A DNA stretch of 31,464 nucleotides from a virus: IMG/VR virus record IMGVR_UViG_3300030104_000807, positions 4,475 to 35,938 of that record, one strand, 5' to 3'. Positions 3,645 to 11,139 of the stretch are shown in pieces. Each line of letters begins with the position of its first letter. Position 1 is the stretch's first letter. The notes beneath the pieces were generated by a model. It was not told the origin of the DNA and did not search any database. It was given only the letters and a program-made list of their open reading frames with translations. A program made the translations under genes and the position numbers.

Positions 3645-3672
3645 AACATACGCACAAAGAACAAAATGTCAA
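3645..3672 (-). promoter_or_regulatory. Sigma70-type promoter of the 79-aa regulator
   Basis: On the minus strand TTGACA (3667-3672, perfect), a 16-base spacer and TATGTT (3645-3650, 4 of 6), followed by TGAATT and the ATG at 3638. It drives the regulator and presumably the recombination cassette down to ssb. Confidence 0.7.
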
Positions 3673-3686
3673 CACCCAATGTGCGT
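3650..3686. promoter_or_regulatory. Candidate operator: facing TGTGCGT half-sites
   Basis: ACGCACA (3650-3656) and TGTGCGT (3680-3686) are perfect inverted copies separated by 23 bases. They bracket the -35 and touch the -10 of the regulator promoter. The right copy extends to TGTGCGTTGC, identical to the element ahead of the capsid gene at 18151-18160. The remaining non-coding bases up to 3746 contain only small dyads (GATAGCTATC, and ATAACTAG with CTAGCTAT). Confidence 0.5.
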
Positions 3687-3746
3687 TGCCATCCCTCTCG
3701 ATCTGACAACGCTTGGGCACTAGTCGATAGCTATCTTCTATTATAA

Positions 3747-3995
3747 CTAGCTATTATGGGCTTCTATGGATGACTCCAATGCCATAAATTCGTTAATATC
3801 CCATTGATTTTCTTTACATAAATGAAGTAATTGATGTGCAAAAACTCTATTAATACCTTTCTCTATTTTTTGAATTTGTTGGAAAGTTACTCCCAACTGA
3901 TCCCCTAAATTAGATTGTGTGAGTTTAGATTGCTTTCGTAATCGTTTAATATTCCATCCGATTAAATAATTTGATTTATTTCTTACTTGTTTCAT
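3747..3995 (-). CDS. Cro/C1-type (XRE) transcriptional regulator
   Basis: 82 aa. A complete XRE domain covers residues about 12-68: IGWNIKRLRKQSKLTQSNLG, then DQLGVTFQQIQKIEKGINRV and a helix rich in His and Leu. The GVTFQQIQKIEKG stretch is the wording seen in alphaproteobacterial chromosomal regulators, a hint to the host. AGAGGTG precedes the ATG, which lies 20 bases inside the DnaA-like gene. With the 79-aa regulator next to it, it could form a two-regulator switch, although no integrase is present in the window. Confidence 0.85.
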   Translation of the reverse strand: MKQVRNKSNYLIGWNIKRLRKQSKLTQSNLGDQLGVTFQQIQKIEKGINRVFAHQLLHLCKENQWDINEFMALESSIEAHNS

Positions 3996-4476
3996 TTAAC
4001 ACCTCTGTTTTTAAATAGTTATATACTTTGTGGTTATTAGGAATTTTCCAAAAGGAAGAACTCCCAATTCTTGTTTTAACATAATGAATACAGCTTGTAT
4101 GATCTCTATTCATTATTCTAGAAATTTCTGGAAAAGATAAAGCAGTACATTCTCTCATTAAATTCGCTATCATAGATCTCGGTATCACTAAATACTGATC
4201 TCTAGCTTTACCTATTAATTCAACTTTAGAAACTTTAAAATAGTTAACTACTACATTGTAAATTGTTTCTACTATTTTTTGATTATTAATAACTGGCCCA
4301 GCTGGAATATCTGCTGGTCTATTAGGTATGATAATTTTTTTAATTTTTTGACGAAGTGCTGCACCTGATCTAAAACCATTTCTAAATGCAGTACGGTATA
4401 TGATAAACTCTTTATTTGTAAGTCCTTCAAATTCGGCAGCTTTTCTAGCCATAGAATAAACATGTTTAAAATCCAT
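3976..4476 (-). CDS. DnaA domain IV-like DNA-binding protein
   Basis: 166 aa from the ATG at 4476 (a TTG three codons earlier is possible). Residues about 70-140 match the C-terminal DnaA-box-binding domain: NVVVNYFKVSKVELIGKARD, IPRSMIANLMRECTALSFPE, then ISRIMNRDHTSCIHYVKTRI with the RDHT(S/T) signature. The AAA+ ATPase domain is absent; the N-terminal 65 residues are a different, basic region. It could bind the phage origin, recruit host replication proteins, or compete with host DnaA. The start overlaps the preceding gene by 11 bases and lacks a Shine-Dalgarno, suggesting coupling. Confidence 0.82.
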   Translation of the reverse strand: MDFKHVYSMARKAAEFEGLTNKEFIIYRTAFRNGFRSGAALRQKIKKIIIPNRPADIPAGPVINNQKIVETIYNVVVNYFKVSKVELIGKARDQYLVIPRSMIANLMRECTALSFPEISRIMNRDHTSCIHYVKTRIGSSSFWKIPNNHKVYNYLKTEVLNETSKK

Positions 4477-4636
4477 TATATTCAATTAATTTATCAATTC
4501 CAATATTGTAAACTAATTCCTCTTTAAATTCGGTAACAAGTTTTCTTAATTGTTTTTCGTTTTTAGTTTGTTCCATATCTTTAATTCTATTAGCAACATA
4601 TAGAACATCTATTCTGTATAGATCTGGTTTAGGCAT
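4466..4636 (-). CDS. Small hypothetical protein, 56 aa
   Basis: Begins MPKPDLYRIDVLYVANRIKD and ends LIEYNGF. Its ATG shares a base with the stop of the upstream gene (TAATG), GGAAAGGAAATG lies before it, and its stop overlaps the DnaA-like start by 11 bases, so it is firmly embedded in the operon. It is predicted to be a charged helix throughout. No family recognised. Confidence 0.65.
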   Translation of the reverse strand: MPKPDLYRIDVLYVANRIKDMEQTKNEKQLRKLVTEFKEELVYNIGIDKLIEYNGF

Positions 4637-10285: not shown

Positions 10286-10312
10286 ATTATCCTCCTAGTT
10301 ATTGTTAATAAA

Positions 10313-10581
10313 TGTCCAATACACGGACACCGTGCAAGAACGAGGGGATACCTTGCTTGGAAATGCGACAGAGTGTTGGCGAGTTTGCCGACACCTATGT
10401 TGCATTTAGCCAACCTATTATGTTGGCGACAAGCGAAGGGGAGTCCTTGTTACGCTAGGTGAATCCGTGTGCCATGCCACGGCGAGTGGCGTTCTTTAAA
10501 ACGCACCGAAGGGAGTCTACGACCGAGGACAGGGAGATCGTAAGAACCGTAGGTTCTTGCCCAATACTAGATATAGTGTTG
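10313..10581 (+). ncRNA. Candidate structured RNA in the divergent hub
   Basis: A gene-free block with 53% G+C (128 of 240 bases in 10321-10560) in an otherwise A/T-rich genome. Hairpins in order: CACGG/CCGTG (10322-10334); AAATGCGACA/TGTTGCATTT (10361-10407) enclosing GTGTTGGC/GCCGACAC; GCCAAC/GTTGGC (10409-10427); ACAAG/CTTGT (10429-10450); CCGTG/CACGG (10465-10482); GTG-CGTT/AACGCAC with one bulge (10486-10506); GTAAGAACC-GTA-GGTTCTTGC (10540-10560); CAATACTA-GATA-TAGTGTTG (10562-10581). The four non-Watson-Crick pairs are all G-U on the plus strand and would be A-C on the other. No tRNA, tmRNA or intron signature and no obvious promoter were seen. A cos/pac site is the main alternative. 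Confidence 0.5.
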
Positions 10582-10612
10582 TGCGTAGCAACATCTACTA
10601 AAGTGCTAATAT
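10581..10612 (+). promoter_or_regulatory. Candidate promoter of the packaging operon with GTGCGTAGC element
   Basis: GTGCGTAGC (10581-10589), exactly 17 bases, then TAATAT (10607-10612). The same arrangement with the same spacer occurs ahead of the capsid gene. The element overlaps the last base of the final hairpin of the structured block. A TTGACA at 10618-10623 further down has no good -10 at 16-18 bases. Confidence 0.45.
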
Positions 10613-10630
10613 AACTCTTGACAAGGAGAA

Positions 10631-10662
10631 ATTCTACCACTACGAACAGTTAGGGGTAGAAT
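10631..10662. repeat. Inverted repeat in front of terS
   Basis: ATTCTACC (10631-10638) and GGTAGAAT (10655-10662) are perfect complements separated by 16 bases, ending 14 bases before the terS ATG. It could hide or expose the start region of the message, or be a binding site for TerS or a regulator. Confidence 0.45.
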
Positions 10663-10676
10663 AATAAAAGCGTTAT

Positions 10677-11048
10677 ATGAGTGATCTAACAGAGAAACAG
10701 AAGAAGCTAGTTGATACCATCGTAACAACTGGTTGTAGCATCAAGGATGCAGCTAAAACAGCAGGATATTCAAGTAAAGGAAGCGAAGAAGCAGGGAGAG
10801 TAAGTGCAAGTCGCACACTACGATTACCAAAGGTACAGAGTTATATGCAACAGAGTATAGCTAGAACACTGGGACTTGGTGCAGTAAGTGCGTCTAGGAA
10901 ACTTATCGACCTGTCATCAGGAGCGAGAAGTGAGTATGTTCAACTAGAAGCTAGTAGGGACATACTAGACAGAGTAGGATTAAGAGCACCTGACAAGGTG
11001 GCTCATAATATTCAGGGCGATATCAAGATCAATATCGACCTGTCTTAA
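10677..11048 (+). CDS. terS: Terminase small subunit
   Basis: 123 aa. N-terminal helix-turn-helix of the TerS kind: LTEKQKKLVDTIVTTGCSIK, then DAAKTAGYSS and TLRLPKVQSYMQ; the C-terminal half (YVQLEASRDILDRVGLRAPD) forms the oligomerisation helices, followed by a short beta tail (NIQGDIKINIDLS) for binding TerL or the portal. It recognises the packaging site and loads TerL. A TAA at 10665-10667 blocks upstream extension; no good Shine-Dalgarno is present. G+C (27 of 60 bases in 10741-10800) is higher than in the neighbours downstream, matching the upstream structured block. Confidence 0.85.
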   Translation: MSDLTEKQKKLVDTIVTTGCSIKDAAKTAGYSSKGSEEAGRVSASRTLRLPKVQSYMQQSIARTLGLGAVSASRKLIDLSSGARSEYVQLEASRDILDRVGLRAPDKVAHNIQGDIKINIDLS

Positions 11049-11049
11049 A

Positions 11050-11139
11050 ACGATGTCGGTACTACCGACAATTTGACCACACCACTCAAAGGAGGGGTGG
11101 GGGCAAAAACACCATCGTCTAGATGACTAGTGGAGTCAT
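11050..11139 (+). other. Structured trailer after terS
   Basis: The outer pair ACGATG (11050-11055)/CATCGT (11113-11118) encloses GTCGGT-ACT-ACCGAC (11055-11069; one base shared with the outer arm) and CCACTC (11082-11087)/GGGTGG (11095-11100, one T-G pair). It is followed by ATGACT (11123-11128)/AGTCAT (11134-11139). It looks like a small branched RNA or a terminator without T-tract. The bases 11140-11203 are AT-rich with no recognised element. Confidence 0.4.

Follow-up and report, generated by a model that had tools for sequence, protein, structure and literature searches.

A G+C-rich, hairpin-packed block at the early/late junction of a marine podovirus genome (positions 10313-10581) appears to carry a large conserved fold in its plus strand, and we give an even chance to the interpretation that this strand folds as single-stranded DNA and serves as a single-strand promoter or initiation region. 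The window analysed comprises 31,464 nucleotides of a 35,938-base IMG/VR virus record (IMGVR_UViG_3300030104_000807). In this model, the block would pass through a single-stranded or extruded state, at replication initiation, under negative supercoiling or perhaps on entry, and the plus strand would then fold into an unusually stable structure consisting of a three-way-junction domain (domain I) and several 3' hairpins. The plus-strand hairpins would attract host machinery able to initiate RNA on a single-stranded template, which may be an RNA polymerase, as at the Frpo/ssi sites of the F plasmid and the early promoters of phage N4, or a primase or primosome. If it is RNA polymerase, the RNA would run leftward into the early replication and recombination operon, because the folded plus strand would be the template. 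In the case of a primer, the block would represent the single-strand initiation part of an origin, laying the first primer. We infer the single-stranded phase, the recruited enzyme and the product, be it mRNA or primer; as supporting context, the phage itself encodes an SSB and a protein with DnaA domain IV.

Judged by its gene content, the virus is a podovirus. Its nearest isolate is Pelagibacter phage EXVC031P Hodr (68% identity in TerL, 59% in TerS), and the presumed host of the window phage is taken from Hodr alone. The block is located at the meeting point of two divergent operons: leftward early genes for the SSB, a Sak-like annealase, a YqaJ exonuclease, the DnaA domain IV protein, two HTH regulators, a DUF932 protein and a ParB-like protein, and rightward late genes for terS, terL, the head-tail connector, capsid and tail. 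The small terminase gene terS occupies 10677-11048 on the plus strand (PF03592 Terminase_2; PHROG terminase small subunit). The minimum of the cumulative GC skew coincides with the block and is consistent with an origin, although the flip in skew would also follow from the divergent gene directions. A DnaA-type replication origin was dropped for lack of a DnaA-box cluster: the window contains 42 boxes against 56 (sd 7) by chance, with neither cluster nor enrichment. The DnaA domain IV protein (3976-4485, minus strand; Bac_DnaA_C, E 7e-16) is devoid of the ATPase domain and could bind sites near the block, for example in the conserved left boundary described below.

The original prediction described a block of about 53% G+C in A/T-rich surroundings with at least eight hairpins and no credible gene, and it was correct in these points. 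The G+C content is 51.3% compared with 31.9% for the window, about nine hairpins or helices are present, and the sole open reading frame encodes 61 amino acids from a GTG on the minus strand. Folded as RNA, the plus strand reaches -111.8 kcal/mol versus -77.9 (sd 5.1) for shuffled sequences (z -6.7); the corresponding z values are -4.3 for the minus strand and -7.0 for the plus strand folded as DNA. Searches of the block for tRNAs and terminators found none, and Rfam returned no family even at E ≤10, save one chance match at the left edge, so that the element is unlisted. Integron attC sites, diversity-generating retroelements and CRISPR arrays were set aside on view of the sequence, in which such genes or motifs were not noticed.

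The block is bordered by an AT-rich left boundary, GTTATTGTTAATAAATG (10297-10316), with a GTTA..GTTAATAAA pattern that is conserved in relatives as judged by eye. This segment likely functions as the -10 region of the leftward early genes, and the box search placed one imperfect DnaA-box-like site in it (10303-10311). All following elements are on the plus strand. Domain I (10317-10472), delimited by a covariance match and by covariation, consists of a long stack of helices, P1-P5, that closes a three-way junction. The 5' strand of P1 (10320-10327) pairs with an invariant CGTGTG strand at 10464-10471 (mean pair probability 0.95), that of P4, AACGAGGG (10339-10346), with TCCTTGTT (10444-10451), and that of P5, CCTTGCTTG (10351-10359), with 10430-10439, one base being bulged. 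The first junction arm (10361-10407; helices 10361-10370/10398-10407 and 10373-10381/10386-10394) has an equal architecture in contigs L131, L025, L057 and L146. The second arm (10409-10427), a GCCAAC/GTTGGC hairpin followed by GAC, is the counterpart of a 'TTGGCA-hairpin-TGCGAC' arm in other members. Domain I is followed by a hairpin with a GGCGA loop (10474-10492), the stem of which covaries in L010, L017 and L050, and by the module AGGGAGATCGTAAGAACC(GTA)GGTTCTT (10531-10558), which forms a C(GTA)G triloop hairpin at 10542-10558 and is common to L001 and L236-L239, always upstream of terS. The last hairpin, CAATACTA-GATA-TAGTGTTG (10562-10581), has a core, GATATAGT, that recurs across clades. 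A hairpin-like sequence, GTTGTGCGTAGCAAC (10578-10592), with GCGTAGC and thus another C(GTA)G triloop, is conserved in relatives and sits immediately to the right of the block as originally delimited. The CGA(A/G)GGGA-like purine motif that the original prediction saw recurring reflects in part GNA hairpin loops that recur ahead of a G-rich strand (10433-10442, 10506-10514).

The original prediction implied covariation among homologous contigs, and this is what was found. Among 80 terS relatives, the closer ones almost always show a G+C-rich block of ~250-650 nt at the matching position. From 17 domain I sequences, the window excluded, an alignment (A1) and a covariance model (R1) were built; R1 matches the window at 10317-10472 on the plus strand with 45.9 bits (E 2e-11). 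When 31 R1 matches were aligned by fitting to R1 (A2), 86% of the cells paired, compared with 36-50% when the structure was slid, and both sides had changed in 45 of 60 pairs (313 changed cells versus 99±9 in shuffles). A MAFFT alignment that predates the model agrees, with compensatory changes in 33 of 60 pairs (144 cells versus 51±6). A DNA pattern derived from the block identified 65 contig stretches, 57 of them upstream of a terS relative and in the same orientation; the remaining eight lack both a detectable terminase and an R1 match and were attributed to chance. Two further module patterns were located upstream of terS and on the same strand in all 51 newly checked terS contigs, the sole exceptions being two inovirus contigs. 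In many relatives, domain I is replaced by another domain that keeps the same closing CGTGTG strand. BLAST of the window's block against phages and plasmids returned nothing beyond terS, and R1 had no match in more distant TerS clades, inoviruses, plasmids or the ssDNA coliphages phiX174, G4 and M13; the window's own modules thus have no match outside this marine podovirus group. In Hodr (L081, 12100-12373, minus strand) a different region upstream of terS also folds strongly (z -6.1), and this isolate could serve for laboratory work.

To judge from comparisons between relatives, the block content is a hypervariable mosaic of exchanged modules. The terS DNA of L001 is 97% identical to that of the window and a 60-nt promoter segment is identical, whereas the block measures 652 nt versus 272 and only ~26% is shared. 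Conversely, L050 matches a 129-nt stretch of the window's block with 85% identity, while its TerS reaches just 83%. These findings bear on the assumption that the neighbouring terminase recognises the block as a pac or cos site for DNA packaging. Such a site would explain why all motif-bearing relatives keep strictly to one position and orientation, immediately upstream of terS. However, TerS proteins of 97-99% identity adjoin very different block contents, the contig of the window is continuous across the block and has its break within a tail gene, and a packaging site predicts neither a single-strand fold nor a loop bias, which makes it very unlikely. The packaging role considered in the original prediction is weakened further by the comparison with phi29. 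The packaging RNA of that podovirus likewise combines a three-way junction with proximity to packaging genes, but the block has no Rfam match, and phi29-type packaging does not use the TerS and TerL pair that the window phage encodes. The mosaic exchange of modules between clades would also suit a recombination hotspot or a selfish hairpin cluster, comparable to the G+C-rich clusters of AT-rich genomes and functionless for the phage. We give this explanation hardly any credence: position and orientation are fixed, compensatory changes occur helix by helix, loops and mismatches are biased to one strand, and the modules are found only upstream of terS with no copies elsewhere.

To find out which strand folds, helices were drawn from Watson-Crick pairs only and isolated mismatches were then tallied, so that the count is strand-symmetric. 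This gave 5 G.T versus 1 A.C in the window region, 36 versus 15 in 46 non-redundant relatives (dinucleotide shuffles, 80 versus 82) and 33 versus 8 in 28 blocks of other clades (p 0.0014); note that these mismatch counts and the loop counts below are drawn from related sequences, which renders the p-values optimistic. Counts in MAFFT columns conflict, with 80 versus 36 for a structure that allows G-U and 27 versus 46 for Watson-Crick-only pairs, and we prefer the within-sequence counts because the column counts are confounded by misaligned helices. The strand difference in whole-region folding energy is weak (p 0.08). Altogether, the folded strand is most likely the plus strand. The strand bias that had been reported for the four longest hairpins, whose non-Watson-Crick positions read G-U on the plus and A-C on the minus strand, is thus reproduced, but the conclusion drawn from it, that the block acts as RNA rather than DNA, does not follow. 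Single-stranded DNA likewise tolerates G·T better than A·C mismatches, and an equal bias is expected when it folds. Covariation and the G.T bias fit RNA equally well.

The loops are more informative. In block hairpins of at least four pairs, C(GNA)G triloops were found 21 times on the plus strand versus twice on the minus strand, with 8 versus 3 in a second set of clades and thus the same direction of bias; every CGNAG with at least three pairs taken together, the ratio is 49:3. Flanking coding DNA as a control gave 2:1 in both cases, and ten rounds of shuffling produced C(GNA)G in 2 of 223 triloops. GNRA or UNCG loops, in contrast, account for only 3 of 141 plus-strand tetraloops, compared with 6 of 18 in Escherichia coli 16S and 23S rRNA (Fisher p 6e-5), the own strand of which has no C(GNA)G by the same count. 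DNA mini-hairpins with GNA loops are extraordinarily stable (PMC4686876), and the early promoters of N4 are template-strand hairpins with a sheared G:A loop geometry that are not melted by SSB (PMC4496689). By this comparison of loop types, the loops look like those of folded single-stranded DNA more than those of RNA.

The main competitor is a structured noncoding RNA or long 5' leader transcribed from the plus strand, modular and hypervariable, that would act in trans on host or phage proteins as an ornate, decoy or anti-defence RNA. The elaborate conserved fold with its covariation, the plus-strand G.T bias, the better folding of the window's plus strand as RNA compared with the minus strand, and a rapid turnover that fits an arms race are all in agreement with it. 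We nevertheless regard an RNA as rather unlikely, in view of the near-absence of GNRA and UNCG loops and the excess of the DNA-type C(GNA)G loop, the folding energy of the whole region that barely favours the plus strand, the absence of a terminator in the block and of a conserved sigma-70 promoter to the left of P1 on the plus strand, where none was found, and the occurrence of a sister module in ssDNA phages and, against gene direction, in plasmids (see below). What stands of the structured RNA originally proposed is a new, conserved and strand-specific element that belongs to no known family, and not the preference for RNA over DNA. Large structured elements of phages are also known among the GOLLD and ROOL ornate RNAs and as cabRNA. 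For GOLLD and ROOL, the difference is that the block has no Rfam covariance match and that its loops are of the DNA type. The cabRNA originates in the terminase region (PMC12286853, PMC10686824), specifically within terS/terL, whereas the block is upstream.

The sister module, GCGACNAGGATCGTTACCC, is the 3' module of many related blocks and is absent from the window's block. Two inovirus contigs (L249 and L286) carry it, as do Pf1 and some 20 other records of Pf-type phages. It also occurs in two records of Synechococcus phages, of which the one examined is classed as an inovirus, and in 47 plasmid records, mostly of Sphingomonadales and other alphaproteobacteria. In the inoviruses examined, it is found on the coding (virion-sense) strand. 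In L249, L286 and Pf1 (3670-3787) it is located at or just upstream of the gene for the ssDNA-binding protein; in these filamentous phages it may be a minus-strand origin or an ssDNA promoter. In plasmids, it is flanked by divergent or by convergent genes or adjoins genes of the opposite strand, and these orientations do not fit an mRNA leader; several copies are near relaxase or tra genes or near genes for zincin-like metallopeptidases. A literature search for the module sequence returned only unrelated papers. A covariance model of the sister module (R2) does not match phiX174, G4 or M13, and it gave two weak matches in the leading region of F (19.2 and 13.7 bits; E 0.012 and 0.49). Both are located inside two paralogous repeats of 89% identity, ~5.4 kb apart, on the strand opposite to the ssb coding strand. 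In the published description, Frpo2 precedes ssb and Frpo1 precedes ygeA/ygeB, the two being ~5 kb apart with 92% identity (PMC9849209), and the two repeats match this pair by position and similarity rather than by published coordinates.

The block and Frpo/ssi share strand-specific hairpins in a noncoding region ahead of early genes, and genes for SSB, ParB-like and DUF932 proteins occur both in the F leading region and in the early operon of the phage; the weak R2 matches are on the expected strand of both F repeats. In contrast to Frpo, the stems of the block are G+C-rich without clear TATAAT or -35/-10 boxes as judged by eye (the AT-rich hairpin 10562-10581 has ACTATA on the minus strand), GNA loops are many in the block and absent from the F repeats, several modules are swapped, and the element resides in a dsDNA podovirus. 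Moreover, the similarity is weak for the sister module and absent for the window's own modules, as R1 does not match Frpo of F. With the N4 early promoters, the block has in common the C(GNA)G-type loop and a plus strand that would be the template for leftward early genes; it differs as a large multi-helix domain from the N4 hairpins of 5-7 bp. A virion RNA polymerase was looked for in virion proteins of 1082 and 1111 amino acids, which gave no match and for which remote homology is possible. Complementary-strand origins (G4, the n'-pas of phiX174, M13) resemble the block in that hairpins form on the strand exposed as ssDNA in replication, and the sister module is common to Pf1-type inoviruses; neither R1 nor R2, however, matches phiX174, G4 or M13.

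We tentatively extend our interpretation to the group as a whole: the early/late junctions in a widely distributed group of marine dsDNA podoviruses may harbour fast-recombining folded-ssDNA modules that serve as the single-strand promoter or primer site of the early operon, draw on a module pool common to filamentous phages and plasmids, and constitute a new family of single-strand initiation elements. Only a few model systems are known for single-strand promoters and initiation sites (the F and ColIb plasmids, N4, M13 and G4). The blocks form a large natural family of many diverse sequences in relatives of an isolated SAR11 phage, with a clear strand and strong covariation, and the sister module, unlisted in Rfam, is a link between dsDNA podoviruses, filamentous phages and plasmids. 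Direct tests of single-strand initiation become possible in dsDNA phages, and the loop-type test is a cheap way to separate folded DNA from RNA by sequence only. If the block is RNA instead, it represents an equally large and unlisted phage RNA family.

The transcription signals beside the block bear on leader functions. A predicted strong terS promoter, TTGACA-17-TACGAA (10618-10646, plus strand), follows downstream of the block; the majority of the 80 relatives have TTGACA ~51-109 nt ahead of terS, mostly with TACNNN after 17 nt. A leader of the terS mRNA was ruled out as the main interpretation because this conserved promoter is downstream of the block. A leader of the leftward operon is unlikely, since the ribosome-binding site and the AT-rich start region are to the left of the block and the bias is to the plus strand. 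The same two start sites argue against a put-like leader RNA that would control antitermination of the late or early operon, for which the structured nature of the block and its position between divergent operons would otherwise speak. Elements of the put type are short and conserved, whereas the block, with 250-650 nt and hypervariable content, is unlike them. In spite of the precedent of putRNA as a known nascent RNA element (PMC9378689), we consider this function highly improbable. An inverted repeat, ATTCTACC/GGTAGAAT (10631-10638/10655-10662), follows the TTGACA-17-TACNNN motif and is possibly an operator. Directly 3' of terS, at 11054-11070, a palindrome, TGTCGGTA-G-TACCGACA, has a terminator-like score on the minus strand.
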